Part shown: positions 298 through 63,950 of the stretch, one piece after another | How the letters are laid out: each line of letters begins with the position of its first letter | Numbering within the stretch: position 1 is the stretch's first letter | DNA from: Cardiobacteriaceae bacterium | GTDB lineage: Bacteria > Pseudomonadota > Gammaproteobacteria > Cardiobacteriales > Cardiobacteriaceae | Length of the DNA stretch: 64,000 nt | Direction: 5' to 3' | Assembly (NCBI GenBank): GCA_030529365.1 | Contig: JAUMXB010000006.1 | Location: 1 to 64,000 of the forward strand | The notes under the pieces: generated by a model | Database searches by the model: none | Told to the model about the DNA's origin: nothing | Seen by the model: only the letters and a program-made list of their open reading frames with translations | Program-made: the position numbers and the translations under genes

Positions 298-397
298 TGG
301 TAAAAAATCACCATATCAAGCGCTTTGTATAGTGATTTTTTACCACATAAAAGCGCTTACAGTGAGAAAATTTCTCATCATAGGCGCTTGTTGTGAG
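298..397. repeat. AAGCGCTT element, copy A
   Basis: Boxes AAGCGCTT at 318-325 and 351-358 and a degenerate AGGCGCTT at 382-389 (spacing 33 and 31). They alternate with AT palindromes of the TGGTAAAAAATCACC and TGAGAAAATTTCTCA types. The element lies 42 bp beyond the clpA stop codon. Confidence 0.85.
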
Positions 398-439
398 TAG
401 AGCCGTTTGAAGAGCGGGAGAAACTTCTCGCCTGACTTT

Positions 440-2737
440 TCAGAAGATTTCGCTGTCCGTCATTTCCCGGCGGCGATAGGTGAGATCCTGTTTTTCCATA
501 CGCAAGACAGGCGCATCGTTATCGATTTCGATGCGCACGTGGCCGCCGCGATCGGCCAGTTCGCCAAAGAGCAGCATTTCCGCAAGCGGCTGCTTGATGT
601 GCTGCTGGATGAGGCGCGCCATCGGGCGCGCGCCCATTTTCGGGTCGTGCCCGTTTTGGGCGAGCCATTCTTTCGCAGCGGGCGAGAGCGAGATAGTGAC
701 GTTCTTGTCTTCCAGTTGCTGCTCGAGCTCGATGATGAATTTGTCCACCACATGGGTGATGGTGCGGTGATCGAGCGGCGCAAAGCGGATGATGGCATCG
801 AGGCGATTGCGAAATTCCGGGGTGAAATGGCGCTTGATCGCGGCATCGGATTGCGCGCTCGCACTTTCCTTGCTGGTGGCGGCGGCAAAGCCGATGCGGT
901 TTTTGTCCATTTCAAAGGCACCGACGTTGCTGGTGAGAATGATGACGAGGTTGCGGCAGTTGATTTCGCGGCCTTGTGCATCGGTGAGCTTGCCGTGATC
1001 CATGATTTGCAGGAGCAGGTTCATGATGTCGGGGTGCGCTTTTTCGATTTCATCGAGGAGCAGCACGGCATGCGGGTTTTTCAGGATCTGGTCGGTCAAA
1101 AGCCCGGCCTGCTCGAAGCCGACATAGCCCGGCGGCGCGCCGATAAGGCGCGAGACGGTATGCGATTCCATGTATTCGCTCATGTCGAAGCGCAGCAGCT
1201 TGATGCCGAGCACGTGCGCAAGCTGGCGGCACACTTCGGTCTTGCCGACGCCGGTAGGGCCGGTAAAGAGGAAGGAACCGATGGGTTTTTCGATGTCGCG
1301 CAGCCCTGCGCGCGAGAGCTTGATGGCGCTGGCGAGCGCATCGATGGCTTCGTCTTGCCCGAAGACGACGGTTTTCAGATCGCGCGCCAGCGTTTTCAGG
1401 AGGTTGCGATCATCCTTGGAGACGCTTTTTTCCGGGATGCGCGCGAGATTGGCGACGAGCTGCTCGATCATGAGCGCCGTGATGGCGTGGCCGCGCTCGC
1501 TTTCCGGCAGCAGATGCAGGCGCGCGCCCGCTTCGTCCATGAGGTCGATGGCCTTGTCGGGCAGGCGGCGGTCATTGATATAGCGGTCGGAGAGATGCAC
1601 GGCGGCTTCGATGGATTCATCGAGATAGGTGGTGCCGTGGAATTTCTCGTAATGCGGTTTCAGCCCTTGCAGGATGGCGATGGCGTCGGCAAGGCTGGGT
1701 TCGGTGACGTCGATTTTCTGGAAGCGGCGCGCAAGCGCATGATCTTTCTCGAAGATTTGCCGGAATTCCTGGTCGGTGGTGGCGCCGATGCAGCGCAGTT
1801 CGCCGGAGGAGAGCGCCGGTTTGATGAGGTTGGAGGCGTCCATGGTGCTGCCGGAAGTTGCGCCCGCGCCAATGATGGTGTGGATTTCGTCAATAAAGAG
1901 AATGGCATGCGGCAGCTGGCGCAATTCTTTCAAAAGCGCCTTGATGCGGTTTTCGAAGTCGCCGCGATATTTGGTGCCAGCGAGGAGATTGCCGATGTCG
2001 AGGCTGTAAATGGTGGCATCCTTGAGGATGTCGGGCACGTTGCCGTCGATGATGGCCTTGGCCAGCCCTTCGGCGATGGCGGTTTTGCCCACGCCCGCTT
2101 CGCCGACGAGGATGGGGTTGTTCTTGCGGCGGCGGCAGAGCGTCTGGATGGTGCGCTCGATTTCCTGGTGGCGGCCGATCAGCGGATCGATATGGCCGTC
2201 GCGCGCTTTCTGGTTGAGATCGGTCGTGAATTCCTCGAGGGCGGAACGGCGCGGCGCGTTTTTCTCGTCCTGCCCTTCTTCTTCGTTTTTCGCGCTTTTC
2301 TCCGGTGCCGGTGCGCCGTGCGAGATGTAGGTGAGAAGATCCATGCGGCTGATTTCCTGTTTGCGCAGGAAATAGGCGGCATAGGAGTCGCGCTCGGAGA
2401 TGAGGGCGACGAGGGCGTTCAGCGGCGTGACTTCTTTCTTGCCGGCATTGCGCACATGCAGGACGGCGCGCTGGATCATGCGCTGGAAGGCAATGGTCGG
2501 CTGGGTGGCGTGTTCGCCGCGCTGCGCGTCGAGCAGCGGGCTGTGTTCGATGAGATAGCGGTTGATGTCTTCGCGCATCACGGCAAGATCGGCGCCCAGG
2601 GTGAGCAGGGCATCGACCACGCTTTGCTCGTCGAGAAGCGCCAGCAGCAGGTGTTCGAGGGTCAGGAATTCATGGTTGGCGCTCTGCGCGCTGTGGTAGG
2701 CGCGCTCGATGGCTTTTTCCAGTTGCGTGGATAACAT
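440..2737 (-). CDS. clpA: ATP-dependent Clp protease ATP-binding subunit ClpA
   Basis: Double-ring AAA+ unfoldase that feeds substrates into ClpP. The 765-residue product has the Clp N domain (about 1-145), a first AAA module with Walker A GEAGVGKT at 212-219 and Walker B at about 279-284, and a second with Walker A GPTGVGKT at 493-500 and Walker B at about 557-563. The ClpP-docking loop reads IGF (615-617), where many ClpA proteins have IGL. The start at MLSTQLEK is preferred over an ATG 32 codons upstream because AGGGAG lies just before it and family members begin there. It follows clpS on the same strand after a 13-bp gap, the usual clpS-clpA order. Confidence 0.97.
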   Translation of the reverse strand: MLSTQLEKAIERAYHSAQSANHEFLTLEHLLLALLDEQSVVDALLTLGADLAVMREDINRYLIEHSPLLDAQRGEHATQPTIAFQRMIQRAVLHVRNAGKKEVTPLNALVALISERDSYAAYFLRKQEISRMDLLTYISHGAPAPEKSAKNEEEGQDEKNAPRRSALEEFTTDLNQKARDGHIDPLIGRHQEIERTIQTLCRRRKNNPILVGEAGVGKTAIAEGLAKAIIDGNVPDILKDATIYSLDIGNLLAGTKYRGDFENRIKALLKELRQLPHAILFIDEIHTIIGAGATSGSTMDASNLIKPALSSGELRCIGATTDQEFRQIFEKDHALARRFQKIDVTEPSLADAIAILQGLKPHYEKFHGTTYLDESIEAAVHLSDRYINDRRLPDKAIDLMDEAGARLHLLPESERGHAITALMIEQLVANLARIPEKSVSKDDRNLLKTLARDLKTVVFGQDEAIDALASAIKLSRAGLRDIEKPIGSFLFTGPTGVGKTEVCRQLAHVLGIKLLRFDMSEYMESHTVSRLIGAPPGYVGFEQAGLLTDQILKNPHAVLLLDEIEKAHPDIMNLLLQIMDHGKLTDAQGREINCRNLVIILTSNVGAFEMDKNRIGFAAATSKESASAQSDAAIKRHFTPEFRNRLDAIIRFAPLDHRTITHVVDKFIIELEQQLEDKNVTISLSPAAKEWLAQNGHDPKMGARPMARLIQQHIKQPLAEMLLFGELADRGGHVRIEIDNDAPVLRMEKQDLTYRRREMTDSEIF

Positions 2738-2750
2738 GCGGGTTCTCCCT

Positions 2751-3065
2751 TTAATGCGGTTGCATGCTGCACAAAAGCGGATACTCGTGTGCGCGTGCGT
2801 AATCAATAACCTGCTGTACTTTGCTTTCGGCAATTTCGCGCGGATAGATGGCGCAGACGGCCAGCCCGTTGTGATGCACTTCCAGCATCAGGCGATGGGC
2901 ATCTTCGCTGTTCTTGCGGAAAAAGCGCTCAAGCACGTCCACGACGAAATCTGTCGTGGTGTAATCATCATTGTGCAACAGGACTTCGTACAGGCGTGGC
3001 TCGGCCAGCTCAGGGTCGGCGGCGAGCGTGTCGAGGTCGGTATCGCTGTGCGGGGCGTGGGACAT
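2751..3065 (-). CDS. clpS: ATP-dependent Clp protease adaptor ClpS
   Basis: Adaptor that binds N-end-rule substrates and the ClpA N domain. The 104-residue product has a short disordered acidic N-terminus and the conserved core: LLHNDDYTTTDFVVDVL with the NDD substrate-pocket motif, and the later H-x-x-G-L-A-V-C segment. The ATG encoding MSHAPH is chosen because AGGA precedes it and upstream in-frame residues do not resemble the family. It lies directly upstream of clpA and is presumably co-transcribed with it. Confidence 0.95.
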   Translation of the reverse strand: MSHAPHSDTDLDTLAADPELAEPRLYEVLLHNDDYTTTDFVVDVLERFFRKNSEDAHRLMLEVHHNGLAVCAIYPREIAESKVQQVIDYARAHEYPLLCSMQPH

Positions 3066-4856: not shown

Positions 4857-5891
4857 ATGACCACACTCACCCTCCGCCGCCCCGACGACTTCCACATCCA
4901 TCTCCGCGATGGCGCGGCGCTCGCCCGCACCGTGCCCGATGCCGCCCGGCAATGCGCGCGCGCCCTCGTCATGCCCAACCTCACCCCCGCAGTGGACACC
5001 ATCGCCGCCGTTGAAGCCTACCGCGCGCGCATCATGGCGCACGTGCCGCAAGGATCGGACTTCACCCCGCTCATGACCCTCTACCTCTCCGACACCCTCA
5101 CCCCCGACACCGTGCGCGCCGCCAAAGCCGCAGGCGTCGTTGCCATCAAATGGTATCCCAAGGGCGCCACCACCAACTCCGCCCAGGGCGTCGCCAGCGT
5201 CGAAGCGCTTTATCCCGTGCTGGAAATCATGGAAGAACAGGGGCTTTTGCTCCTCATCCACGGCGAAGTCACCGATGCCGACATTGACATCTTCGACCGC
5301 GAAGCCACCTTCATCGAGCGTGTACTCATCCCCCTGCGCGCGCGCTTCCCGCGCCTCAAAATGGTGATGGAGCATCTCACCACCGCGCACGGCGTCGCCT
5401 ACGTCAAAAGCCAAAGTGAAAACCTCGCCGCCACCGTCACCGCCCACCATCTCCTGTTCAACCGCAATGCGCTCCTCGTCGGCGGCGTCAAACCGCACTT
5501 CTACTGCCTGCCCATCCTGAAAACTGAAAAAGACCGGCAAGCGCTGCTCGAAGCTGTGGCAAGCGGCGACAAGCGCTTTTTCATGGGCACGGACAGCGCC
5601 CCGCACGCGCGCGAAGCCAAGGAAAACGCCTGCGGCTGCGCCGGCTGCTACACCGGCCATGCCACCCTCGCCTTCTACGCCGAAGCCTTTGCGCAAATGC
5701 ACGCGCTGGACAAGCTCGACGACTTCTGCTCCGCCCATGGCGCCGACTACTACGGCCTCCCGCGCAACACCGGCACCATCACCCTTATCCAGGAAGACAC
5801 CACCTTCCCGCAAACCCTCCCTTACGGCGACAGCGAACTCGTGCCTTTCCTCGCCGGACAGCAATGGCCATGGCGCATCCAAAACGCATGA
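4857..5891 (+). CDS. pyrC: Dihydroorotase (class II, PyrC)
   Basis: Catalyses cyclisation of N-carbamoyl-aspartate to dihydroorotate in pyrimidine synthesis. The 344-residue length is typical of class II enzymes. Metal ligands His13 and His15 (HIHLRDG), the carboxylated lysine region AIKWYPKG (Lys98) and the C-terminal GTDSAPHAREAKE motif with its catalytic Asp are all present. AGGTAAGCC precedes the ATG. The gene starts 8 bp after the M61 peptidase. An AAGCGCTT element begins immediately after the stop codon. Confidence 0.97.
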   Translation: MTTLTLRRPDDFHIHLRDGAALARTVPDAARQCARALVMPNLTPAVDTIAAVEAYRARIMAHVPQGSDFTPLMTLYLSDTLTPDTVRAAKAAGVVAIKWYPKGATTNSAQGVASVEALYPVLEIMEEQGLLLLIHGEVTDADIDIFDREATFIERVLIPLRARFPRLKMVMEHLTTAHGVAYVKSQSENLAATVTAHHLLFNRNALLVGGVKPHFYCLPILKTEKDRQALLEAVASGDKRFFMGTDSAPHAREAKENACGCAGCYTGHATLAFYAEAFAQMHALDKLDDFCSAHGADYYGLPRNTGTITLIQEDTTFPQTLPYGDSELVPFLAGQQWPWRIQNA

Positions 5892-5972
5892 TGAGAAATT
5901 TTCTCACTGCAAAGCGCTTATCACGATAAAATTTCTCACCATAAGCGCTTAATCATGGTAAAAAATCACCAT
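5892..5972. repeat. AAGCGCTT element, copy B
   Basis: Starts on the base after the pyrC stop. TGAGAAATTTTCTCA (5892-5906) is followed by AAGCGCTT at 912-919 and 943-950 of the 5 kb block (5912-5919 and 5943-5950; spacing 31). It ends with TGGTAAAAAATCACCA, the head arm in reverse orientation. Confidence 0.9.
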
Positions 5973-5996
5973 TTTTGGTTGTTTTTTAAAATTCTA

Positions 5997-6240: not shown

Positions 6241-6268
6241 GCGAACAACGCCCCACACGAAACAAATC

Positions 6269-6352
6269 ATGAGAAATTTTCCCACCACCAAGCGCTTGTC
6301 ATGCAAAAATTTCTCACCATAAGCGCTTTACTATGGTAAAAAACGATTATTT
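6269..6352. repeat. AAGCGCTT element, copy C
   Basis: Boxes at 6290-6297 and 6321-6328 (spacing 31), flanked by TGAGAAATTTTCCCA on the left and TGGTAAAAAACGATTA on the right. It ends about 24 bp upstream of the tyrA start, inside the likely promoter or leader region. Confidence 0.9.
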
Positions 6353-6375
6353 TTAACGATTTTATGGAGTATAAC

Positions 6376-11396: not shown

Positions 11397-11420
11397 TTGC
11401 AACAATGCAAATACCCGAAA

Positions 11421-11478
11421 CATTTTCTCACGACAAGCGCTTGATGGTGATTGGAACAGCTCGCGTAGCGAGAGAAAA
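11421..11478. repeat. AAGCGCTT element, copy D (hairpin-containing variant)
   Basis: One AAGCGCTT box (11435-11442) preceded by a TTTTCTCACGAC half arm. It is followed by an inserted GC hairpin CTCGCGTAGCGAG within GGTGATTGGAACAG...AGAGAAAAA. On the minus strand this insertion closely matches copy J at 27651-27692. Confidence 0.7.
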
Positions 11479-14199: not shown

Positions 14200-14205
14200 A
14201 ATAAA

Positions 14206-14289
14206 ATGGTAAAAAATAACTATACAAAGCGCTTAGTATAGTAATTTTTTACCAATAATAAGCGCTTAATGTGGTAAAAATAAACTATA
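14206..14289. repeat. AAGCGCTT element, copy E
   Basis: Boxes at 14227-14234 and 14260-14267 (spacing 33). All three arms are of the GGTAAAAAATAACTA type and none is the TGAGAAAATTTCTCA type. It begins 7 bp after the dld stop. Confidence 0.88.
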
Positions 14290-14405
14290 AATCTATATTT
14301 TTTAAAAAATACTCCATAATCATGCATCATTGACAAAAATCATCTCCCTGCACCGGACAAATGGTGACAATACCTTTTCCATTTTTCGTCCACACAGGAG
14401 CCCCC

Positions 14406-19884: not shown

Positions 19885-19916
19885 ATGCATTTACCACTCC
19901 TCAAAAAAACCATCAA

Positions 19917-19972
19917 AATAGTTGTTTTTTACCACTATAAAGCGCTTGTCACGAAAAATAAACACCATAAAA
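19917..19972. repeat. AAGCGCTT element, copy F (single box)
   Basis: Head AAAATAGTTGTTTTTTACCA followed by one box at 19940-19947 and a decayed second arm. It lies 24 bp upstream of the next gene. Confidence 0.75.
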
Positions 19973-19995
19973 AACAAAAAACGATAAAAACCACC

Positions 19996-20481
19996 ATGGT
20001 CACCCCCGAATACGCCCCGCGCCACGACCGCAAGACGCGCATCCGCTTCGCCCTGTTCTGGCTCACGCTTGCCGCCCTTGCCTTCGCCTTTCTCCAATTC
20101 ATCTACTTCCCCTTTCTTCGCGACCTCGCTGAGAACGGCGAATGCCGCAAAATTTTCGGCCAGCCCGGTCTCATCGTCCTTTTCTACGCCAGCCTCCTCC
20201 CCATGCCGCTGCTGCTCCTGGCGGCAAGCCTCTTCCTGCTCCCCACCGCCATCCGCACCCTGCAAAGCGGCACCTATCCTCCGCCCGGCCGCAAAACCTT
20301 CCGTCTTATCCGCATCCGCTACGGCCGCGCCGCACGCCTTCACGGCTGGCTGATGATCGCTTATATAATCACCGCCTTCGCCACCCTCGTTTACGCCTTC
20401 GTCCTCACGGGCAACTATGCTGCGCGTTATCACGCCAAATACCCGGATGGCGCGTCTTGCATAGAAAATACAAAAAAATAG
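19996..20481 (+). CDS. Hypothetical small membrane protein
   Basis: A 161-residue product with three predicted hydrophobic helices: about 17-40, 58-85 and 115-138. It has a short basic N-terminus (HDRKTRIR) and a C-terminal tail outside the membrane, containing one Cys. No family recognised. The ATG at 19996 is the first in a plausible context; the open frame extends upstream through repeat DNA and accC antisense-type codons, which is not credible coding. The stop codon TAG lies inside the head of repeat copy G, so the last two or three residues are encoded by the element. Confidence 0.6.
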   Translation: MVTPEYAPRHDRKTRIRFALFWLTLAALAFAFLQFIYFPFLRDLAENGECRKIFGQPGLIVLFYASLLPMPLLLLAASLFLLPTAIRTLQSGTYPPPGRKTFRLIRIRYGRAARLHGWLMIAYIITAFATLVYAFVLTGNYAARYHAKYPDGASCIENTKK

Positions 20482-20560
20482 CGATTTTTTACCACCATAA
20501 AGCGCTTATCATGAGAAATATTCTCACCATAAGCGCCTTTCCATGAGAATATTTACCACT
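20478..20560. repeat. AAGCGCTT element, copy G
   Basis: Head AAAATAGCGATTTTTTACCA, box at 20500-20507, arm TGAGAAATATTCTCA, degenerate AAGCGCCT at 20531-20538 (spacing 31) and a final TGAGAATATTTACCA. The head contains the stop codon of the preceding gene. The element ends 13 bp before the prmA start. Confidence 0.88.
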
Positions 20561-20573
20561 TACCCGGAATACC

Positions 20574-23930: not shown

Positions 23931-24012
23931 ATGATAAAAAAATACTATTCAAAGCACTTTATATCGTCATTTTTTACCGCGATAAGCGCTTTATTATGGG
24001 AAAATTTCTCAC
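23931..24012. repeat. AAGCGCTT element, copy H, fused to the DUF192 gene
   Basis: Degenerate first box AAAGCACTTT (about 23951-23960), exact box at 23984-23991, and arms of the GTCATTTTTTACCG and TGGGAAAATTTCTCA types. The downstream coding frame is open right through it. Confidence 0.8.
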
Positions 24013-24449
24013 GCCACATCCTGTTCGCCGCTCTGCTCGCCGCTTGCCTTCCCGTTCATGCGCATCGTCTGCTCGATGATCGCGGCGAAGTGTGGCAAGT
24101 GGAAGTCGTCGATACGCCAGCGGCCATGGCACGCGGCCTGATGTTCCGCCTGTATTTGCCGAAACACGCTGGCATGCTGTTCGTTTTCGATCCGCCGCGC
24201 GAAACTGCCTTCTGGATGCGGCAAACCTATATTCCGCTCACCATGCGCTTTTACGATGCCTACGGCAGGCTCATCGCTTTCTATCCCCATGCCACGCCTT
24301 GCCACCGGATGCCCTGCCCTGTCTATCCCTCGCATGCGCCGGTGAAATATGTGCTGGAAACGCGCACCGCCGACCGCGATGTACGCCCGCCCTATGCCTT
24401 TCCCGCGCCGCATCGCCGCCTGCTGCACTTGTTACCATTCGCGGAATAA
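23931..24449 (+). CDS. DUF192 family secreted protein, 5' end formed by a repeat element
   Basis: The DUF192 core is clear: AMARGLMFR, a GMLFVFDPPRETAFWMR segment and a later PCPVYP region. It is preceded by a signal-peptide-like stretch (HILFAALLAACLPVHA). The only in-frame ATG upstream of the core is 23931, inside repeat copy H, so the first roughly 27 residues (MIKKYYSKHF...) are encoded by the element. Either that start is used, or a non-ATG start lies near 24018, or expression was damaged by the insertion. The 172-residue length assumes the ATG. Family members are small periplasmic proteins of uncertain function. Confidence 0.7.
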   Translation: MIKKYYSKHFISSFFTAISALLWENFSRHILFAALLAACLPVHAHRLLDDRGEVWQVEVVDTPAAMARGLMFRLYLPKHAGMLFVFDPPRETAFWMRQTYIPLTMRFYDAYGRLIAFYPHATPCHRMPCPVYPSHAPVKYVLETRTADRDVRPPYAFPAPHRRLLHLLPFAE

Positions 24450-27609: not shown

Positions 27610-27706
27610 ATGAGAAAATTTCCATAACAAAGCGTCGGGTATGATAAATTTTCTCTCGCTGCGCGAGCTGTTCCAGTCACCATAAGCGCTTGTACGTAGT
27701 AAAAAT
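27610..27706. repeat. AAGCGCTT element, copy J (hairpin-containing variant)
   Basis: TGAGAAAATTTCCA arm, a degenerate box AAGCGTCG at 27630-27637, arm TGATAAATTTTCTC, then an inserted hairpin CTCGCTGCGCGAG plus CTGTTCCAG. TCACCAT and an exact box at 27684-27691 follow. The insertion is shared with copy D. Confidence 0.75.
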
Positions 27707-27850
27707 CAATCCCTGAGAGTCAGATTCTCCGCTGCCTGAGACGTTGCAGAAACCAACAGTGTCTGAAGGACACGGTAAGGGGAATACAAACCGTGAAGCA
27801 AGCAAACAACGACGCTCAACATCCCCGCCCCTTGGAGCGGGGATTTTTAT
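27707..27850 (+). mobile_element. Probable 3' relic of an IS200/IS605-type tnpB element
   Basis: A short frame without a start reads ESQILRCLRRCRNQQCLKD, then (after a gap) TVKQANNDAQHPRPLERG, and runs into a hairpin ATCCCCGC/GCGGGGAT (27821-27844). This resembles the extreme C-terminus and right-end hairpin of orfB/tnpB elements. No transposase core, zinc ribbon or left end is present, so at best it is a fragment. The resemblance is from memory and is not proven. Confidence 0.35.
27821..27850 (+). terminator. GC hairpin followed by T-run
   Basis: ATCCCCGC (27821-27828) pairs with GCGGGGAT (27837-27844), then TTTTT. It may be an element-end hairpin or a terminator. It also lies just beyond the stop of the secreted protein gene on the other strand. 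Confidence 0.55.
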
Positions 27851-28413: not shown

Positions 28414-28530
28414 GATTGACTCCTGTTGCTGTTGCAAAATGCCGGTTGGCAAAGGGACTATAACACCGCTTCCATACGGATGTTTTAAAGTTCCGTCATG
28501 CGCTATTTATAATATTTTATTCATGATTAT

Positions 28531-28612
28531 AATAATTTTTTATCACCTATAAGCGCTTATGGTGAGAAAATTTATCATAGCAAGCGCTTAAAGGTGAGAA
28601 ATTTTCTCATGA
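28531..28612. repeat. AAGCGCTT element, copy K
   Basis: Boxes at 28551-28558 and 28582-28589 (spacing 31). Arms are ATAATTTTTTATCACC, TGAGAAAATTTATCA and TGAGAAATTTTCTCA. It ends about 100 bp before hemE. Confidence 0.9.
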
Positions 28613-29754: not shown

Positions 29755-30156
29755 ATGCGCATCGCGGTGCGCTTCGCCTCCGATGCCTTTCCGCCGGAAG
29801 CGGGCGAAACCGGCCTCATCAATCCCGGCATCTTCGGCAAGCGCCTTGCCACCTGGCTCGTCGAGCAACTGCCTGCGCACGGCTTTGCCGTAACCGACTG
29901 GTATCCCGAAAACTGGGGCTGGGAAATCGTTCTGGAAAACCGGGAGTTCCCCTTGAAAATCGGCTGCCGTGGCGAAGATGGCGCCGGTTTTCTCTGTTAT
30001 CTCAGCCCGGACAAACCCGTAATCCGCCGCGGCCTGTGGCGCAGGAAAACCGATACGCGCGCGACAATTGCCCGGCTCGCGGCTGCACTGGATACCATCT
30101 TGCGGAGTGACGCACGTATTGAAAACATTGTTTGGATAGAAAATCACGAAAAATAG
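29755..30156 (+). CDS. Conserved hypothetical protein
   Basis: A 133-residue soluble protein with INPGIFGKRLATWLVEQL near the N-terminus and ENWGWEIVLENREFPLKIGC in the middle, a pattern I associate with an uncharacterised proteobacterial family. No signal peptide or membrane segment. The start follows the hemE stop by one base, so translation is likely coupled. The stop TAG lies in the head of repeat copy L, so the last residues (EK) come from the element. Confidence 0.75.
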   Translation: MRIAVRFASDAFPPEAGETGLINPGIFGKRLATWLVEQLPAHGFAVTDWYPENWGWEIVLENREFPLKIGCRGEDGAGFLCYLSPDKPVIRRGLWRRKTDTRATIARLAAALDTILRSDARIENIVWIENHEK

Positions 30157-31015: not shown

Positions 31016-31020
31016 GAACA

Positions 31021-34612: not shown

Positions 34613-34690
34613 TATGAGAAAATTTCTCATCATCAAGCGCTTGTTGTAAGAAATTTTCCCATCATGAGCGCTTTGTTATGAGAAAAAATG
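34613..34690. repeat. AAGCGCTT element, copy N
   Basis: TGAGAAAATTTCTCA, box at 34635-34642, arm TAAGAAATTTTCCCA, degenerate GAGCGCTT at 34666-34673 (spacing 31), then TGAGAAAAAATG. It lies in the 394-bp AT-rich divergent gap between frdA and hisB. Confidence 0.88.
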
Positions 34691-36477: not shown

Positions 36478-37632
36478 ATGGAAAAATACCTGGAGCAACT
36501 CGTCAAATGGCGTCGCCATCTGCACCAGCATCCCGAACTCTCCTTTGAGGAAGTGGAAACCAGCCGCTTCATTGCCGAAGAAATGGGCAAGCTGGAAAAC
36601 GTCTCCAGCATCGAAAGACTCACGCCCACCAGCGTAGTCGTCGTCTTCAAAACCGGACGCCCCGGCGCCAAACTCGGCCTGCGCGCCGACATCGATGCCC
36701 TGCCCATCCAGGAAGAGCGCGACGAGCTGCCCTTCAAATCGCAGAACCCCGGCAAAATGCACGCCTGCGGCCACGATGGCCACACCGCCATCCTCATGGC
36801 TGCCTGCCAGTATTTCAACGACCATCTCGATGAATTTACAGGCGAAATCCACGCCATCTTCCAGCATGCCGAAGAAAAGCTCCCCGGCGGGGCACGGGAA
36901 ATGGTCGCCACCGGCTATTTCAACGACTTCGATTACATCTACGGCCACCATCTCTTTTCCACCTCGGAAACCGGCATCGTCGATATCAAGGACGGCCCCG
37001 CCAGCGCCAATACCGACGTCTATCACCTCACCATTCACGGCAAGGGCGGCCACGCAGCCATGCCCAACCACAGCATCGACCCCGTGCTCATCGGCGCGCA
37101 ATTCGTTACCCTGCTGCAAGGTATTGTCGCCCGCCGCGTTGACCCGCACGACGCCATGGTCATCTCCAACACCATGTTCCACGCCGGCAGCGCGCAAAAC
37201 GTCATCCCCGACAATGCCGAACTCACCGGCAGCGTGCGCACCACCAGCGAAGCCTATCGCCAGCTTGCCCGCGACAGCATTGAAAACCTCGTCAAGGGAT
37301 TGTGCGACGCGGCAGGCGCCACCTACACCCTAGATTACGAAGTGGGCTACAGCGTCACCTGGAACGACCCGGAAAAAACTGCCATCGTGCGCGAACTGGC
37401 GCGTGCACGCTACGGCGACCAGGTCGTCAGCCTGCCGCCCATGATGGCCGGCGAGGATTTTGGCGTTTTCGGGCAAGTGGTACCGGCCACCTATGCCTTT
37501 ATCGGCTCGGCCAACGACGCCAACCGCTACCCGCACCATCACCCCAGGTTCGGGCTTGACGAAGCCTGCTTCCCCATAGGCCTGCAAATGATGATAGATG
37601 TGGCAAAAAACGGAGAACGTTTCAAAAAATAA
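36478..37632 (+). CDS. M20 family amidohydrolase
   Basis: Zinc amidohydrolase of the M20D group (hippurate, indole-acetyl-amino acid or N-acyl-amino acid hydrolases). The 384-residue product has RRHLHQHPELSFEE, ADIDALPIQE, metal-binding HACGHDGHTA (Cys97, His99), the Glu-Glu of QHAEEKLPGGA, and the C-terminal HHHPRFGLDE. AAAGGAAAATCCC precedes the ATG. Substrate unknown. Confidence 0.9.
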   Translation: MEKYLEQLVKWRRHLHQHPELSFEEVETSRFIAEEMGKLENVSSIERLTPTSVVVVFKTGRPGAKLGLRADIDALPIQEERDELPFKSQNPGKMHACGHDGHTAILMAACQYFNDHLDEFTGEIHAIFQHAEEKLPGGAREMVATGYFNDFDYIYGHHLFSTSETGIVDIKDGPASANTDVYHLTIHGKGGHAAMPNHSIDPVLIGAQFVTLLQGIVARRVDPHDAMVISNTMFHAGSAQNVIPDNAELTGSVRTTSEAYRQLARDSIENLVKGLCDAAGATYTLDYEVGYSVTWNDPEKTAIVRELARARYGDQVVSLPPMMAGEDFGVFGQVVPATYAFIGSANDANRYPHHHPRFGLDEACFPIGLQMMIDVAKNGERFKK

Positions 37633-37637
37633 CCAAA

Positions 37638-37722
37638 AATAGTATATTTTTACCGCAATCAAGCGCTTGTTGTGAGAAAATTTATCACGACAAGCGCTTA
37701 TCAGTGAGAAAATTTATCACTG
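37638..37722. repeat. AAGCGCTT element, copy O
   Basis: Head AAATAGTATATTTTTACCGC, boxes at 37661-37668 and 37692-37699 (spacing 31), arms TGAGAAAATTTATCA twice. It fills the gap between two convergent genes. Confidence 0.92.
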
Positions 37723-37725
37723 CTT

Positions 37726-39979: not shown

Positions 39980-41083
39980 ATGCGCCACACTTTCCCCATG
40001 CTTTGCCTTCTCGCCCTTTCCGCCCGCGCCGAAGAAGTGAATCACTGGCTGAAACTCTTCCCCAAGGATGACACCATCTTTGCAAGCGAAAACATCGTGG
40101 TGGAAAAGCCGAGCGAACCCATCGTACAAACCATTCCCGATCACGTACTCTCCAGCAACGAGCGCTTCTTCACCCTCAACATCGAAAACGACAAATTCGG
40201 CAGCGGCTACGATCGCGACTACACCAACGGCCTGCGCCTCACCTGGTTCAACGTTGGCGCCGAGCAGCCCTTTTACGTGGATTGGATCGACCGCCTCGTC
40301 CCCACCTTCCAGATCAACAAAACCACCACCACCTACTTCTCCTTCGGCCACAACCTCTACACCCCGCACGACATCGACATCGACTATCTCGACCCGCAGG
40401 ACCGCCCCTACGCCGCCTTCCTCTACGGCTCCACCGGCATCAGCACCATCACCGACCGCCATATGGACGACGTCGAATTCACCCTTGGCTGGATAGGCCC
40501 CTCCGCGCTCGGCGAAGAAATCCAGGACAACTTCCACCGCCTCATCAACGCCGACTACCAGCCCAAAGGCTGGCAATACCAGCTGCGCGACGAACCCGGC
40601 ATCATGCTCTCGTGGGAACGCTCGTGGCCGGCGTATTACACCGCGCAAATCGGCAACAAAATCCACGGCCGCTTCAGCCCGCACATCGGCGTCACCCTCG
40701 GCAACATCTACACCTACGCCAACGCCGGCTTCATCTTCGACCTCACCCCGAGCCACATGCGCTGGCAAACCCAGCCCGTGCGCGTGCGCCCCGCCATTCC
40801 CGGCAGCGGCTACTTCGACAGCAGCCAAAACCACGGCTGGATGGCCTTCGTCGGCTACGACGCCCGCCTCATGGCGCGCAACATCTTCCTTGACGGCAAC
40901 ACCTTCAAAGACAGCCACAGCGTCAGCAAACGCCCGCTCGTGCACGACCTCGCCGTCGGCCTCGCCTACAACTACAAAAACTTCCGTGCAAGCTACACCG
41001 CCAACTGGCGCAGCCGCGAATTCAAATCGCCGCTGGCGCAAAGCTCCAGTTTTGGCGCTGTATCATTGAGTTACAGTTTTTAA
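39980..41083 (+). CDS. lpxR: LpxR-like outer membrane lipid A deacylase family protein
   Basis: Predicted outer-membrane beta-barrel of the LpxR (DUF2219) family, whose studied member removes the 3'-acyloxyacyl group of lipid A. The 367-residue product has a signal peptide (about 1-17, ending ARA) and the calcium/substrate-site signature NIENDKFGSGYDRDYTNGLR. DPQDRPYAAFLYGS, GWIGPSALGEEIQ and a C-terminal phenylalanine typical of barrels are also present. The start after AAGGAACCC is chosen because the signal peptide begins there. It lies 17 bp behind cls, so membrane-lipid functions may be co-expressed. Confidence 0.85.
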   Translation: MRHTFPMLCLLALSARAEEVNHWLKLFPKDDTIFASENIVVEKPSEPIVQTIPDHVLSSNERFFTLNIENDKFGSGYDRDYTNGLRLTWFNVGAEQPFYVDWIDRLVPTFQINKTTTTYFSFGHNLYTPHDIDIDYLDPQDRPYAAFLYGSTGISTITDRHMDDVEFTLGWIGPSALGEEIQDNFHRLINADYQPKGWQYQLRDEPGIMLSWERSWPAYYTAQIGNKIHGRFSPHIGVTLGNIYTYANAGFIFDLTPSHMRWQTQPVRVRPAIPGSGYFDSSQNHGWMAFVGYDARLMARNIFLDGNTFKDSHSVSKRPLVHDLAVGLAYNYKNFRASYTANWRSREFKSPLAQSSSFGAVSLSYSF

Positions 41084-41089
41084 GCAAAA

Positions 41090-41170
41090 ATAGTGATTTT
41101 TTACCATCATGAAGCGCTTATCGTGAGAAAATTTCTCGCAATAAGCGCTTATTGGTGATAAAAAACAACT
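41090..41170. repeat. AAGCGCTT element, copy P
   Basis: Head AAATAGTGATTTTTTACCAT, boxes at 41112-41119 and 41143-41150 (spacing 31), arm TGAGAAAATTTCTCG. It lies between two convergent genes, 7 bp after the lpxR stop. Confidence 0.92.
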
Positions 41171-41190
41171 ATCCCGCATAACATCAAACA

Positions 41191-47150: not shown

Positions 47151-48482
47151 ATGAATCCCATTGTTGTCGCAGTCGTTCTTATGCTGGGGCTGGCGTTGGC
47201 GCGAGTGCATGTGGTGGTCAGCCTGATGCTGGGAGCGCTTGCCGGCGGTTTGCTCAGCGGCCTTGATCTCACGGCAACGATCAAGGCTTTCGAAGCCGGC
47301 CTTTCCGGCGGCGCCAGCATCGCGCTTTCCTATATCCTGCTCGGTGCCTTCGCTGCCGCCATCATCCATTCCGGACTGCCCGATGCCATAGCGCAACGTG
47401 CAGTGGGCTTTGCGCGGGCGCAATCGCATAGCGCGCATTTCCTGAAATGGGGCGTCATTGCCGTCATCATCCTGATGAGCGTGATGAGCCAGAACGTAGT
47501 CCCAATTCACATTGCCTTCATTCCCATGCTGATTCCGCCCTTGTTGCCGCTCTTTGACCGCCTGCGCGTGGATCGCCGCCTGCTCGCCTGCGCGATGACG
47601 TTCGGTCTGGTGACCACATACATGTTCCTGCCCTACGGCTTCGGCGAGCAGTTCCTGCGCAAGATTCTTCTCTTCAATATCAGCCAGTCAGGTCTGGATG
47701 TAATGCACTTTTCCAATGCGCAAATCATGAAAGCGATGCTGATTCCCGCGCTTGGCATGCTTGGCGGACTGCTGCTTGCGCTCTTTGTGAGCTACCGCAA
47801 ATCGCGCGATTACGGCGACACTCATCACGTCGGGCATACCGAAGCGGAAAACGCGCAAACCTTCACTCCATACCGCTCCGCCGTGGCCATTGTTGCCATT
47901 GTGGTGTCCTTTCTGGTGCAGATCTTTGCCGGTTCGCTGATGGCAGGTGCCCTGACAGGGTTTGCAATTTTCGTGATCAGCGGCGTGGTGCACTGGCGCG
48001 ACAGCGATGCCGTGTTCAACCGTGGCCTGCGCATGATGGCGATGATCGGCTTCATCATGATTGCGGCGCAGGGCTTTGCTGCCGTAGTACGCGAAAGCGG
48101 ACAAATCCAGCCGCTGGTGGATAGCTCCGTCGCCCTTTTCGGCGGCAGCAAGGGGCTTGCCGCCTTCGTCATGCTGCTCGTGGGATTGCTGATTACCATG
48201 GGCATTGGCAGCTCTTTTTCCACTTTGCCAATTATCGCCGCCGTATATGTGCCACTTTGCATGGAACTCGGTTTTTCCCCGCTTGCCACCATTGCTCTTA
48301 TCGGCAGCGCAGGTGCGCTGGGCGATTCCGGCTCTCCTGCTTCAGATTCCACTCTGGGGCCAACGATGGGGCTCAATATCGATGGTCGTCACGATCATAT
48401 CCGCGATACCGTCATTCCCACTTTCCTGCATTTCAACCTGCCCTTGCTGTTGGCTGGCTGGATTGCGGCAATGACTTTATAA
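47151..48482 (+). CDS. Na+/H+ antiporter (NhaC-like, COG2056) family transporter
   Basis: A 443-residue membrane protein with about 11 hydrophobic helices. It has LSGGASIALSYILLGAFAAAI, SQNVVPIHIAFIPMLIPPLL and a C-terminal SAGALGDSGSPASDSTLGPT stretch, the pattern of the COG2056 transporters. Some relatives are proposed to carry histidine or short-chain acids, so the substrate is open. Start MNPIVVAV follows GGAGA; the frame upstream overlaps the pheS promoter region. Confidence 0.82.
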   Translation: MNPIVVAVVLMLGLALARVHVVVSLMLGALAGGLLSGLDLTATIKAFEAGLSGGASIALSYILLGAFAAAIIHSGLPDAIAQRAVGFARAQSHSAHFLKWGVIAVIILMSVMSQNVVPIHIAFIPMLIPPLLPLFDRLRVDRRLLACAMTFGLVTTYMFLPYGFGEQFLRKILLFNISQSGLDVMHFSNAQIMKAMLIPALGMLGGLLLALFVSYRKSRDYGDTHHVGHTEAENAQTFTPYRSAVAIVAIVVSFLVQIFAGSLMAGALTGFAIFVISGVVHWRDSDAVFNRGLRMMAMIGFIMIAAQGFAAVVRESGQIQPLVDSSVALFGGSKGLAAFVMLLVGLLITMGIGSSFSTLPIIAAVYVPLCMELGFSPLATIALIGSAGALGDSGSPASDSTLGPTMGLNIDGRHDHIRDTVIPTFLHFNLPLLLAGWIAAMTL

Positions 48483-48492
48483 ACCATCTTAA

Positions 48493-48576
48493 AATAGTGT
48501 ATTTTTACCAAATAAAAGCGCTTATTTCGATAAAATTTCTCACCATAAGCGCTTATTGATGAGAAAAAATACCATC
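48493..48576. repeat. AAGCGCTT element, copy Q
   Basis: Head AAATAGTGTATTTTTACCAA, boxes at 48516-48523 and 48547-48554 (spacing 31), arms CGATAAAATTTCTCA and TGAGAAAAAATACCA. It lies between the convergent transporter and katA genes. Confidence 0.92.
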
Positions 48577-48591
48577 CTCTGGCTGGCGCAT

Positions 48592-50229: not shown

Positions 50230-50349
50230 GTTTAATTAGAATAACGAATCATAAATCAATTTTCAATATATAAAATTAATTAAAAGGCGGTAGCGTTGCA
50301 TTGTGCAGGCAAGCACCTGATAATGCAGATCTTGCTTGCCAAGCATCAA

Positions 50350-50432
50350 AATGGGAAAATTTCTCATTAACAAGCGCTTATCGTGCAATTTTTTTAAAAC
50401 AAAGCGCTTTTTTATGATAAAAAATATCTAAA
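50350..50432. repeat. AAGCGCTT element, copy R
   Basis: GGGAAAATTTCTCA arm, boxes at 50372-50379 and 50402-50409 (spacing 30), last arm ATGATAAAAAATATC with AAAATA beyond it. It ends about 12 bp before the next start codon. Confidence 0.88.
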
Positions 50433-50444
50433 ATATATAATTAT

Positions 50445-51248
50445 ATGAAAAATATCACTTTGCTTTCCTTGTTTTTTGCCGCACTTTTTGCATGGGCTCA
50501 GCAAACCTGCACAGAAATGGATGCGCTCGCTGCCACGCACATGCAAACCCTCACAGATCTCGGCGATGACCAGGCAAACGACAGCTTTGCCGACGCAAAC
50601 GCGGCATTCGTTCACGCGTTGCAAACATTCGCCAAACAGCATGCAGCGGAAAGCCGAACATGCAACTACGACGCGACACAGGAAAAATACGCCTTCAATG
50701 CCCCCGTCTCCGCCGACGGCAAACTGCGTGCCTACAGCTGGGATACCATGACCGGCGGCACCATGCGCTATTATTTCAGCCTGTTGCAGTATCAGGACGG
50801 GAACGGCAACACCCACATCGTCGAAGCCAATGCCGACGCGGCAACGGATGAAACCTGGGGCGACGGCAACAGCGGCCTCGTGGACGACATCTTCACTGCC
50901 GATCTCGGCGAGCACGGCACGGCCTATTTCCTCATCGAATATTTCCAGGGCGACAGCCGCAACAAAGGCTACAGCGCCACGCTTTACCGCGTGAACGGCA
51001 ACAAGCCGGAAGAACTGCCGTGGATCATCGAAGACGGCAAAGACAGCACCAGCACCGGCTTTGCCTTCGACAACCTCCAGGATCCGCTGCCGCAGGAATA
51101 CACCTTCATGCGCTACGACGCGGCGAGCAACACCCTCTCCTTCCCGCAAACCCTGCCGGGCAACGAAGAACTCAATGCCATCATGACCGACCAGCGCGTC
51201 GCGTACCGATTTGACGGCAAGCGCTTCGTCGCGACAGAGAACCCGTAA
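50445..51248 (+). CDS. Hypothetical secreted protein
   Basis: A 267-residue product with a signal peptide (MKNITLLSLFFAALFAWAQ, cleavage about residue 18). It has an Ala-rich helical segment with two Cys (22 and about 72) and a C-terminal half rich in Asp, Gly and aromatic residues (FLIEYFQGDSRNKGYSATLY), likely beta-rich. I recognise no family. No Shine-Dalgarno is visible: the sequence before the ATG is AT-only DNA from the edge of repeat copy R. Confidence 0.65.
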   Translation: MKNITLLSLFFAALFAWAQQTCTEMDALAATHMQTLTDLGDDQANDSFADANAAFVHALQTFAKQHAAESRTCNYDATQEKYAFNAPVSADGKLRAYSWDTMTGGTMRYYFSLLQYQDGNGNTHIVEANADAATDETWGDGNSGLVDDIFTADLGEHGTAYFLIEYFQGDSRNKGYSATLYRVNGNKPEELPWIIEDGKDSTSTGFAFDNLQDPLPQEYTFMRYDAASNTLSFPQTLPGNEELNAIMTDQRVAYRFDGKRFVATENP

Positions 51249-52136: not shown

Positions 52137-52231
52137 TATAAAAAGCCGCGCAGCGACAAAGCCGACAATATTCCCCATGCCTTACAGAATGTTGTAAACC
52201 TTACCCATCCATCAAAAACAGAAAATCTAAA

Positions 52232-52316
52232 AAATAATCATTTTTTACCACTTCCAAGCGCTTATCATGAGAAAAAATCTCACAACAAGCGCTTTATCAT
52301 GAGAAAAAATACCATC
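52232..52316. repeat. AAGCGCTT element, copy S
   Basis: Head AATAATCATTTTTTACCACT, boxes at 52256-52263 and 52287-52294 (spacing 31), arms TGAGAAAAAATCTCA and TGAGAAAAAATACCA. The remainder of the 354-bp gap upstream of dapF holds no gene. Confidence 0.92.
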
Positions 52317-52436
52317 CCAATATCCGCATAACTCCGGCATCACGCCAGACCATCCCGCAGCGCCAATTCGTCCTGCCATCGGGATTTTCCGGGAAAACGG
52401 CGATATACTCCCCCCACCTTTTCGCGAGTACCGCCC

Positions 52437-53276: not shown

Positions 53277-54169
53277 CTGCCGCGCTCAAGCCCTGGCTCG
53301 ACACCCTGCGCTACGAACGCGAACTCTCCCCGCAAAGCATCAGCACCTACGCCCGCATCCTCACCGCCCTGCTTGCTGACCACCCCGACCTGCACCACAT
53401 CAGCAGCAGCGAACTGCAACACTGGCTCAACCGCCAGCACGCCAAAGGCAACAGCGCGCGCACCCTCTCGCAACACCGCTCCGCCCTGCGCAACTATTTC
53501 GCCTGGCTGCAAAAAAGCGGCGCACGCAGCGACAACCCCGCTGCCAACCTCGCCAGCCCGAAAATCCCGCGCGGCAAACTGCCCGCCACCTTCACCCCCG
53601 ACGAACTGCGCACCCTGCTCATTCCTCCGCCCGACGACGCCGATCCCCTCGCCTGCCGCGACCACGCCATCCTCGAAACCCTCTACAGCACCGGCCTGCG
53701 CCTCGCCGAACTCGTCGCCCTCGACGCCGCGCAAATCGCCACCCACACGCGGGAACTCCTCATCCGCGGCAAAGGCGGCCACGAACGCATCATCCACTTC
53801 GGCCAACCCGCGCAACACGCCCTGCAACGCTGGCTTGGCCTGCGCGCGCAAATCGCCAACCCCGGCGAAACCGCCCTTTTCGTCAACCACACCGGCGGCC
53901 GGCTGAGCGCGCGCGGCGTGGAACTGCGCCTGCAACACTATGCGCAAAGCCGCCTGCCCGGCCGCCGCATCACGCCGCACATGCTGCGCCACAGCTTTGC
54001 CAGCCACCTCCTGCAATCCTCCGGCGACATCCGCGCCGTGCAGGAAATGCTCGGCCACCGCCAGCTCGGCACCACGCAAATCTACACCCACCTCGATTAC
54101 CAGCATCTCGCCCACGTCTACGATCAGGCACATCCCCGCGCCAAACGCAAAAATCATAAGATCCATTAA
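53273..54169 (+). CDS. xerC: Tyrosine recombinase XerC
   Basis: Resolves chromosome dimers at dif with XerD. The 298-residue product has an N-terminal SAM-like core-binding domain. The catalytic set follows: Arg in STGLRLAEL, Lys in GKGGHER, HMLRHSFASHLL (His, Arg), LGHRQLGTTQIYTH (His, Tyr nucleophile). XerC rather than XerD follows from linkage to dapF. Repeat copy T begins immediately after the stop. Confidence 0.95.
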   Translation: MTAALKPWLDTLRYERELSPQSISTYARILTALLADHPDLHHISSSELQHWLNRQHAKGNSARTLSQHRSALRNYFAWLQKSGARSDNPAANLASPKIPRGKLPATFTPDELRTLLIPPPDDADPLACRDHAILETLYSTGLRLAELVALDAAQIATHTRELLIRGKGGHERIIHFGQPAQHALQRWLGLRAQIANPGETALFVNHTGGRLSARGVELRLQHYAQSRLPGRRITPHMLRHSFASHLLQSSGDIRAVQEMLGHRQLGTTQIYTHLDYQHLAHVYDQAHPRAKRKNHKIH

Positions 54170-54252
54170 AATAGTTGTTTTTTACCATCAGAAAGCGCTT
54201 ATGATGAGAAATTTTTTCACGAAAAGCGCTTGCTGATGAGAAAATATACCAA
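54170..54252. repeat. AAGCGCTT element, copy T
   Basis: Head AAATAGTTGTTTTTTACCAT, boxes at 54193-54200 and 54224-54231 (spacing 31), arms TGAGAAATTTTTTCA and TGAGAAAATATACCA. It starts on the base after the xerC stop. Confidence 0.92.
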
Positions 54253-54382
54253 CCTTACTCCAAACAGACGCGTTCACCTGCTGCAATGCAAGCGATTCTG
54301 GCGACATCTCGCGGAAAACGGATGACACGAACAAGGCTGGCGAGGTGAGCCGAAGGCGAACCCCAGTGCAGATAACAAAAGC

Positions 54383-54779: not shown

Positions 54780-54858
54780 TATTTTTTTCCATAAAAAAGC
54801 GCTTGATGCGATTTATTTACCGCAACAAGCGCTTCATGATGGTAAAAAACACCTATTT
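54780..54858. repeat. AAGCGCTT element, copy U
   Basis: Boxes at 54797-54804 and 54827-54834 (spacing 30). Arms are GCGATTTATTTACCGC and, at the right, TGGTAAAAAACACCTATTTTT, the head in reverse orientation. It lies 26 bp beyond the ssb stop. Confidence 0.88.
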
Positions 54859-54883
54859 TTAGGCAAAAGATGTTTTGCAGGAA

Positions 54884-60793: not shown

Positions 60794-60895
60794 CGGATTA
60801 CTCTTGAGTGAGGAAAAGCGCGCATTTTAACGGTTTCACCGCGCAAAACCAACGCGCGGCCCATATTGGGAATATATTCCAAAAAACAGGCGAAT

Positions 60896-60950
60896 AATAG
60901 ACTATTTTTACCAATATAAAGCGCTTATTGTAAGAAATTTTCTCACCAAA
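60896..60950. repeat. AAGCGCTT element, copy V (single box)
   Basis: Head AATAGACTATTTTTACCAAT, box at 60919-60926, arm TAAGAAATTTTCTCA and a decayed AAAGGCGG. It lies between the divergent argS and nitroreductase genes. Confidence 0.8.
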
Positions 60951-61080
60951 AAGGCGGAACACTCAAAAATCTCCGCTCCATTTCCACAAGAAACATCCTG
61001 GCAAAGACCGTATCATGTACGCCGCAAGCTGTTGCCGCAAAACCGTCATATCCATTGATTTCATTCAAAAAGGGGCAGAC

Positions 61081-61809: not shown

Positions 61810-61823
61810 CCATTACCTCGGAG

Positions 61824-62732: not shown

Positions 62733-62780
62733 CGCGGTACTCCTTCTGCAAAAGCCGCTATCTTGCCGCGCCGCTTGCCA

Positions 62781-62811: not shown

Positions 62812-62839
62812 CGCCTTTTCCGATAGCCGGAGTAACGCC

Positions 62840-63739
62840 ATGCCGCAATTCCCCCATAAACGAAGCATCAGCGAACGGGCAATCACGCTGGAACAATTGC
62901 GCAGCTTTGTCGCCATTGCCGACTGCGGCAATGTCAGCCAGGCTGCGGCAGCGCTCTCGCGCACGCAATCAACATTGAGCGCCGCCCTGAAGCGCCTTGA
63001 GGACGAACTTGGCCAGGCGCTCATCGAACGGCGCCAGGGGCATGTGCTCGGGCTGACTGCAACGGGACGGCGTTTTTTGCCAACCGCGCGCGACATCCTC
63101 ACGCGCATGGCGCATGCCTGCGAACATCTGCAAAGCGAACCGCTTGCCGGCCATATCCGCCTGGGCATACCGGATGATTTCGACCTGCTGCGTCTGCACG
63201 ACATCATCGCCCAATGCCTTGCCGAACATCCCGCCCTGCGCGTGGAAATCACCGCCGCAGGCAGCGCCACTTTGCGCGCACTCGCGCATCAGGGCGCACT
63301 CGACATCAGCATCTGCAAAACGCTTGCCGGCGTTGCCGTCAATCCCGAAAGCGAGCGCATATTGCGCCACGACAACCTCTGCTGGGCAAGCGCGCATCAC
63401 ATCGATCCCAAAACCCTGCCAAGCCTGCCACTCGTCACCTTCCCGCAAGGCTGCATCATCCGCGAATGCGCGGTACGCGCCCTGAACAGCATTGACCGCC
63501 CCTGGCATCCCGCTTATACCAGCGCTTCTTTTGCCAACGTGCGCGATGCGGTGCTGGCCGGATTGGGAATTGCGCTATTGCCGCAGCATGCCTTGCATCC
63601 CGCGCTTCGCCTTTTCGATCATGGCAATGGCTTTCCCGATACTCCCGCCATCCAGTGGGTATTGAACATTCACGGCGCCAGCACACCCGCCCGCCATTTC
63701 TCCCGTCTTCTCGGTGAGAAACTGATACACGCCTTCTGA
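62840..63739 (+). CDS. LysR family transcriptional regulator
   Basis: A 299-residue regulator with the N-terminal winged helix at about residues 13-72 (LEQLRSFVAIADCGNVSQAA and TQSTLSAALKRLEDELG) and a periplasmic-binding-like effector domain. The start is placed at the ATG after CCGGAGTAACG. Divergent orientation to the AEC transporter is the typical LysR target layout; the effector is unknown. Confidence 0.92.
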   Translation: MPQFPHKRSISERAITLEQLRSFVAIADCGNVSQAAAALSRTQSTLSAALKRLEDELGQALIERRQGHVLGLTATGRRFLPTARDILTRMAHACEHLQSEPLAGHIRLGIPDDFDLLRLHDIIAQCLAEHPALRVEITAAGSATLRALAHQGALDISICKTLAGVAVNPESERILRHDNLCWASAHHIDPKTLPSLPLVTFPQGCIIRECAVRALNSIDRPWHPAYTSASFANVRDAVLAGLGIALLPQHALHPALRLFDHGNGFPDTPAIQWVLNIHGASTPARHFSRLLGEKLIHAF

Positions 63740-63892
63740 TCGCGACGCCAACCGCTTCTCGGTATTGCAAAGCCTCGCAACAACCAGCCAAAAACGAAAC
63801 CATGACTGAAGGCAGACCCGCGCCGGTATTCCGCGTTATCGCATGTCACCCCATATTTTAAGCACCGCTTAATATCTCATAATCTTCGTAAA

Positions 63893-63950
63893 AATAGCGG
63901 TTTTTTACCATCAAGAAGCGCTTGCTGCGGTAAAAAACAATTATAAAAAC
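63893..63950. repeat. AAGCGCTT element, copy W (single box)
   Basis: Head AAATAGCGGTTTTTTACCAT, box at 63916-63923, then GCGGTAAAAAACAATTAT. The rest of the sequence from the lysR stop to the window end holds no gene. Confidence 0.82.

Follow-up and report, generated by a model that had tools for sequence, protein, structure and literature searches.

A two-box palindromic element of about 103 bp at gene boundaries in a genus of Cardiobacteriaceae, and its possible role as a protein-bound site

The intergenic gaps of a Cardiobacteriaceae bacterium contain hundreds of copies of a palindromic element that is described here from a 64,000-nucleotide stretch of DNA (the window; positions 1 to 64,000 of contig JAUMXB010000006.1, GenBank assembly GCA_030529365.1) and from the genome to which the window belongs. 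The full unit consists of three palindromic arms that alternate with two copies of an 8-bp palindromic box, AAGCGCTT, most often set 31 bp apart. The architecture of the element, its spacing, the constraint on its boxes, its free spacers, the lack of compensatory change, the placement of about one copy per gap, the bias toward gene 3' ends and convergent gaps, and the overlap with stop codons were all computed directly. Taken together, these features are consistent with a protein-bound element at gene boundaries, acting as a transcription block or insulator, and this is the reading that we tentatively prefer. Intergenic palindrome families are commonly interpreted as selfish DNA or as RNA hairpins. 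The pattern of change in this family, with boxes fixed, arms moderately kept and spacers scrambled at a fixed length, tells these readings apart and favours phased protein binding.

Architecture and distribution of the element

Exact copies of AAGCGCTT occur 48 times in the window, compared with an expectation of 2.42 +/- 1.59 and a maximum of 8 in shuffled sequences. Thirty-six of these boxes are found in 22 intergenic copies of the element, 14 with two boxes and 8 with one, and the remaining 12 are inside genes and have no arms. A first-pass annotation of the window had estimated about 22 copies and about 36 intergenic boxes; both counts were reproduced exactly, and the box spacings of 30, 31 and 33 bp that it reported were found on precisely the copies that it named. 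The 33-bp pairs are 318/351, 14227/14260 and 30954/30987, the 30-bp pairs are 50372/50402 and 54797/54827, and the other nine pairs are spaced by 31 bp. In the 33-bp pairs, a longer arm of type H between the boxes replaces the 15-bp arm of type S.

About half of the genome of the window (G000, 2.30 Mb) was read in stretches for detailed tests. From 1.18 Mb of this genome 244 two-box copies were collected, 206 of which have their boxes 31 bp apart. The same spacing was found for 134 of the 158 box pairs in 777 kb sampled, and no pairs at distances of 70 bp or less other than 30-33 bp were found in 425 kb. The two ends of the unit are unlike (one H and one S) in 178 of the 244 copies, so the unit is polar. 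The consensus of 162 copies with unlike ends is ttTTCAtAAAat-NNNN-AAAAATAGTnaTTTTTTACCA-tcAat-AAGCGCTT-AT.g-TGAGAAAaTTTcTCA-c.At-AAGCGCTT-atTga-TGAGAAAATTTctCATt, and the ends of the full unit of about 103 bp are sharp, with information content dropping to zero over a few bases around positions -43 and +59. N4 or N5 spacers, constant in length and free in sequence, separate the three arms and two boxes. The arm consensus is TGNNAAAWTTTNNCA, and the half-sites of the middle arm are mostly TGAG, with CGAG, TGCA, CGAT and TGAT also present. The distance between arm and box centres is about 15.5 bp, so that boxes and arms each repeat every 31 bp, which is close to three helical turns. One-box copies have the form arm-box-arm. 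The layout of head, box, arm, box and arm that had been proposed earlier holds for the boxes and arms, but the unit is longer, with an extra TTTTCATAAAAT block and an N4 spacer before the head.

Genome-wide, 462 two-box copies were found in G000 (none with the reversed control pattern) and 446 in G001, a second species of the same genus (g1) whose assembly is 78% complete; a dense family with a fixed 31-bp period, as first described from the window, is thus borne out. Many copies with a single box are present as well. AAGCGCTT ranks first among the 256 palindromic octamers at 54-57 times expectation. When the other 30 genomes of the order were searched with the two-box pattern, 28 had no match, G008 had one chance match in a different context, and G009 had 50, because AAGCGCTT is densely dispersed in that genome. 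The element is absent from the nearest named relatives, Cardiobacterium hominis and C. valvarum, and it belongs to another Cardiobacteriaceae genus than Cardiobacterium. The core, with up to three mismatches allowed, was found in 0 of 368 other Gammaproteobacteria genomes sampled from the class. Carriage by phages, plasmids or viral contigs was rejected, as no match was found (viral contigs were searched with an exact shorter pattern).

The Rfam scan of the window returned only two CRISPR-DR4 matches, neither of which is on an element, and no family above the gathering threshold; in the literature searched, no described repeat family with such an architecture was found, which agrees with what had been claimed at first. 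The outcomes that the first-pass annotation had listed as speaking against its proposal (few copies, unconserved spacing, a named family) were each checked and none was found. We class the element as a new family within the known kind of repetitive intergenic elements.

Constraint between species and placement at gene boundaries

The orthologous gaps of G000 and G001 were compared in a sample of about 20 elements; the coding identity of the two species is about 85%. Two-box copies are present in both species in 18 gaps, in one species with a partial form in the other in 7 gaps, and in one species only in 4 gaps. In the aligned orthologous copies, each box differs at 1 of 168 positions (2/336 in total, 0.6%), the arms at 15-19%, the N4 spacers at 46% and the N5 spacers at 48-55%, compared with 33% at fourfold-degenerate sites and 14.7% in alignable element-free gaps. 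The spacers of orthologous copies differ at 9.8 of 18 positions and those of unrelated copies at 10.9 of 18. It is possible that codon-usage constraint on fourfold sites is a partial reason why the spacers outpace them. Gene conversion among copies was rejected as a cause of the scrambled spacers, since the expected near-identical donor-recipient pairs were not seen in the half of the genome that was covered. Inversion of the core between the boxes was also rejected, since inverted spacers fit worse.

End types and orientation are kept in 15 of 15 orthologous copies, and the distance to the nearer gene is unchanged in most of them. A search with the arms only found an exact box at 192 of 216 positions and a box with one change at 8 more. 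The consensus next to the box is shifted between the two species at positions -2 and -1 (p about 1e-11). The first-pass annotation had suggested selection on the boxes and on their spacing, and both are supported here.

The constraint is specific to boxes that are part of an element. AAGCGCTT has a density of 3.1/kb in the gaps of G000 versus 0.23/kb in genes. Lone boxes inside genes are conserved between the species in 30% of cases, no better than control octamers (31%), which indicates that the target of selection is the box as part of an element. In the genes of a 425-kb sample of G000, lone AAGCGCTT occurs 4.9 times as often as in synonymous shuffles, and one reading frame holds most of these boxes; TTCGCGAA, its reversal, is 7-fold depleted there.

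The placement of the element relative to genes was determined from gene calls made with a codon-model gene finder written for this analysis. The convergent gaps of G000 with zero, one, and two or more elements number 22, 62 and 11, respectively, compared with a Poisson expectation of 38, 35 and 22 (p = 6.5e-9). Under-dispersion per gap was also found in the tandem gaps of G000 (p = 1.1e-9) and in the convergent (p = 1.3e-3) and tandem (p = 4.9e-4) gaps of G001. Occupancy of convergent gaps is about 75-80% and does not rise with gap length. Where the native gap is shorter than 150 bp, elements occupy 32/41 convergent, 117/358 tandem and 7/43 divergent gaps in G000, and 9/11, 39/149 and 3/14, respectively, in G001, while 28 of 59 divergent gaps of at least 150 bp hold elements. 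The early observation that copies occur in tandem, convergent and divergent gaps is therefore correct, but the three are not used equally, as short divergent gaps are avoided and convergent and tandem gaps are favoured. The position of the first box peaks 10-40 nt 3' of stop codons. In 50 of 245 two-box copies a gene stop codon is found within 22 nt of a box, which is about the extent of the end arm. The stop codons supplied by the element are the TGA of TGAGAAA, the TAG of AAAAATAG and the TAA of TGGTAA. The distance between elements has a mean of 2.6 kb and a coefficient of variation of 0.76, which is more even than random.

Protein binding and alternative readings

The first-pass annotation had left four options for the element: a nucleoid-protein site, a MITE-like element, an mRNA 3'-end structure and an uptake signal. 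Among these, a protein site is favoured. The fixed length and free sequence of the spacers, the invariant box, the degenerate dyad arms and the three-turn period fit phased protein binding. The elements would be old, fixed-in-place sites for one or more DNA-binding proteins, with about one site per intergenic gap. A dimeric protein would read the 8-bp box and the same or a second protein may read the arms, and the 31-bp recurrence would give a phased complex that needs the length of the spacers and not their sequence. The likely task of such a complex would be to stop or insulate transcription from either side, serving as a roadblock at gene 3' ends and between opposed transcription units. Protein binding, the identity of the protein and the effect on transcription are what we infer from these patterns.

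Several points weigh against this proposal. Elements occupy nearly half of the long divergent gaps, where a pure terminator would be needless. In the tandem gaps of G000 intrinsic terminators were found at 7% of the 3' ends with an element versus 26% of those without, and in G001 there was no difference. The difference in G000 is confounded because the element occupies the space that was scanned, and replacement of intrinsic terminators by the element, although suggested by G000, is not counted here as support. Loss of Rho as the reason for the element was rejected, as the Rho gene is present, and so there is no general termination gap that calls for a substitute. In addition, the two-box copies would also fold well as RNA, and the genes were called with a home-made finder.

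A wider proposal is that most gene boundaries of the genus are marked by a dedicated multi-site protein complex in helical phase, which would amount to a general system of boundaries or insulators maintained by selection at hundreds of separate sites. We consider this less likely than not, though worth stating; if true, such a system would be of a kind not described in bacteria. The element opens the idea of a genome-wide boundary system based on protein to testing, and a two-box probe could capture the protein.

A rival to the boundary element is a set of nucleoid or chromosome-organising sites, in which a nucleoid-associated protein would bind phased boxes chromosome-wide and the boxes would lie in gaps merely because genes and promoters cannot host them. 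The even spacing of the elements, the occupied long divergent gaps, the fixed 31-bp phase and the strong constraint on the boxes would all be expected of such sites. However, the near-constant occupancy of convergent gaps at any length and the peak at 3' ends point to gene boundaries and not to any free space. We judge nucleoid sites to be somewhat improbable, and the occupancy of long divergent gaps, together with a terminator comparison that gives different outcomes in the two species, keeps them as a rival.

A hairpin acting at the RNA level, as proposed for REP and BIME sequences, would have transcribed copies fold at mRNA 3' ends and protect or terminate the mRNAs. The palindromic consensus does make the two-box copies fold as RNA (z of -3.3 to -9.6 on either strand), and they resemble REPs as reported (PMC3733652) in lying downstream of genes and in overlapping stop codons. 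However, pairing is not what is maintained. At the variable arm pairs, shuffled partners give a higher Watson-Crick fraction than the real ones (z about -2), and the N4 spacers in the would-be stem pair little above shuffled partners. A positive pairing signal is present only beside the boxes (z 4.7 and 2.4; pair -2/40 has z 3.8 in the outer-pair test), and the outer pairs show no covariation signal except for one pair. The one-box copy tested, which has the complete form, has RNA structure no better than shuffles, and only 8 of 414 element strands pass as intrinsic terminators when scored for a G+C-rich hairpin followed by a T tract. RNA or cruciform structure kept by compensatory change was therefore rejected. 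The first-pass annotation had argued that palindromy kept while the arms vary suggests a folded structure; the arms are indeed palindromic, but only through a consensus that is common to both halves, and the halves do not covary. An RNA hairpin is thus a doubtful explanation.

The REP, BIME and REPIN families, which carry GTAG/CGTC tags, resemble the element in having hundreds of palindromic intergenic copies, mostly in tandem and convergent gaps near stop codons, often supplying one (PMC3733652). Since GTAG REPs are known to donate stop codons (PMC3733652), that trait is not in itself new. The defining form of a REP is GTAG or CGTC at one end of a palindrome of 20-40 bp, whereas the element is about 103 bp long with three arms, two boxes and fixed N4/N5 spacers, and its consensus ends (162 copies) are without a GTAG/CGTC tag. 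REPINs consist of two invariant ends around a variable middle (PMC3116915); compensatory changes are reported as common in their middle but absent here, and the element has no recent copies. Intrinsic (Rho-independent) terminators resemble the element as inverted repeats that lie shortly 3' of stop codons where genes are convergent or in tandem. The element is not one of them, as it is without a T tract, is constrained in its DNA sequence and not in its pairing, and also occupies long divergent gaps.

A family of miniature inverted-repeat transposable elements (MITEs), inert or formerly mobile and amplified before the species split, would explain the sharp ends, the polar consensus, the intergenic and lineage-specific distribution, and the few gaps that are occupied in just one of the two species. 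We find this very improbable, as the boxes are almost unchanged, the spacers are near saturation and the copies are under-dispersed per gap. No target-site duplication was found: over thousands of offset tests, a 4-bp flank match was present in 4.3% of copies at best. Among the 14,535 pairs of copies compared in half of the genome, even the most similar pair differs at 12 of 86 positions, and no clean empty orthologous site was found, as presence differs in 4 of 29 two-box gaps with no clean footprint. An active MITE was rejected on the same three grounds. No parent transposon with the same ends was noticed, although no systematic search was made. ERIC and Correia-type MITEs are also short, intergenic and sharp-ended, and the copy number of the element is within the range of 30-711 reported for ERIC (PMC10969869), but the element differs from them in these three respects and in its position-specific constraint at orthologous places. 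An insert of another repeat-like kind, CAAGCGCTTC...GGAAGCGCTTTG, with two AAGCGCTT boxes and no arms, is present in a gap of G001 (L275, near 4076-4259) and missing from the G000 ortholog.

A DNA uptake signal, which biased uptake would maintain in a family capable of natural transformation, is equally hard to credit. C. hominis is a known transformer (Tonjum 1985, as cited in PMC3630211), a more distant genus of the same family (g5) carries AAGCGCTT as a dispersed 12-bp palindrome, and uptake drive could hold the boxes exact without a local function. The lone in-gene boxes are unconserved, however, and the element is long and polar and present at near one copy per gap instead of being scattered. 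The DNA uptake sequences of Neisseriaceae and uptake signal sequences of Pasteurellaceae are also genome-wide repeats of naturally transforming families, but differ from the element in that its box is palindromic as well as in the properties just named. HIP1 (GCGATCGC) of cyanobacteria, like AAGCGCTT, is an over-represented palindromic octamer; HIP1 is a bare dispersed octamer, whereas AAGCGCTT in G000 matters only inside the arm-box-arm element.

Copies in the window and other repeats

The 22 copies are numbered by their position in the window. Two are on the minus strand, and in both the H end is on the right: copy 2 (5887..5994, boxes 5912 and 5943), whose S end is at the stop codon of a gene that ends at 5891 and which is found in the same gap of G001, and copy 3 (6260..6366, boxes 6290 and 6321). 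Seven copies have no assigned strand. Copy 1 (294..397, boxes 318 and 351) and copy 5 (14200..14310, boxes 14227 and 14260) have an H-type middle arm, and copy 1 has in addition a decayed third box, AGGCGCTT. Copy 4 (11410..11470) has a single box at 11435 and partial arms, copy 9 (27650..27720) has a single box at 27684 and degraded arms, and copy 13 (34614..34688) has one exact box at 34635 and GAGCGCTT 31 bp further. Copy 17 (50340..50445, boxes 50372 and 50402) and copy 20 (54782..54868, boxes 54797 and 54827) are those with 30-bp spacing.

The other copies are on the plus strand. Single boxes are present in copy 6 (19905..19990, box 19940), which has an H arm on the left and an exact box in G001; copy 8 (23931..24015, box 23984), of the form H-box-S; copy 21 (60890..60955, box 60919), a complete H-box-S whose RNA structure is not above shuffles; and copy 22 (63880..63960, box 63916), of the form H-box-H. 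Copy 7 (20457..20562) has an exact box at 20500 and AAGCGCCT 31 bp further, which is AAGCGCTT in G001. The two-box copies include copy 10 (28515..28612, boxes 28551 and 28582), in a divergent gap and kept in G001 with exact boxes; copy 11 (30136..30235, boxes 30175 and 30206), whose head provides the TAG stop codon for the gene that ends at 30156; copy 12 (30928..31016, boxes 30954 and 30987), which adjoins a canonical terminator-like hairpin; and copy 14 (37620..37724, boxes 37661 and 37692), which occupies the whole of a 93-bp convergent gap and is kept in G001. The remaining two-box copies are copy 15 (41078..41175, boxes 41112 and 41143; RNA fold z of -9.4 and -9.6 on the two strands), copy 16 (48481..48583, boxes 48516 and 48547), in a convergent gap, copy 18 (52217..52318, boxes 52256 and 52287), and copy 19 (54149..54255, boxes 54193 and 54224), the head of which starts at the stop codon ending at 54169.

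Other dispersed repeats share gaps with the element (5995-6240 and 54340-54640 in the window), namely GTAGGATGGGCGTAAGCCCATGC, which is GTAG-REP-like, GTTGGGTTAG...TAACCCAAC, and TTGGGGTTCGCCTACGGCTCACC. These repeats have copies in G001 too, often close to elements. The two CRISPR-DR4 matches are lone units at 30785-30812 (+) and 42637-42664 (-) that match at 28 of 28 positions, and neither is in an array; one of them is about 140 bp from copy 12.

In G009, the g5 genome (e.g. L050-L064), AAGCGCTT occurs 4,391 times in 1.6 Mb, or once per 364 bp, and takes the form of a bare 12-bp palindrome, CAAAGCGCTTTG, with unconserved flanks. Within genes it is 16-fold over synonymous shuffles in all three frames, and its one-letter variants are near background. 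The pattern resembles that of a HIP1-type palindrome, or else of an uptake signal that is palindromic, here in a gammaproteobacterium, and the bare form of AAGCGCTT is a closer parallel to HIP1 than the element of G000. Common descent of the box in g1 and g5 is unproven, as g5 falls by ArgS on a long branch apart from g1, and Cardiobacterium is without it. In G007 (genus g4, L280-L283), a tandem repeat of the ATTGCCTATTGCCTATT type is present in 18-19 copies in 80 kb.

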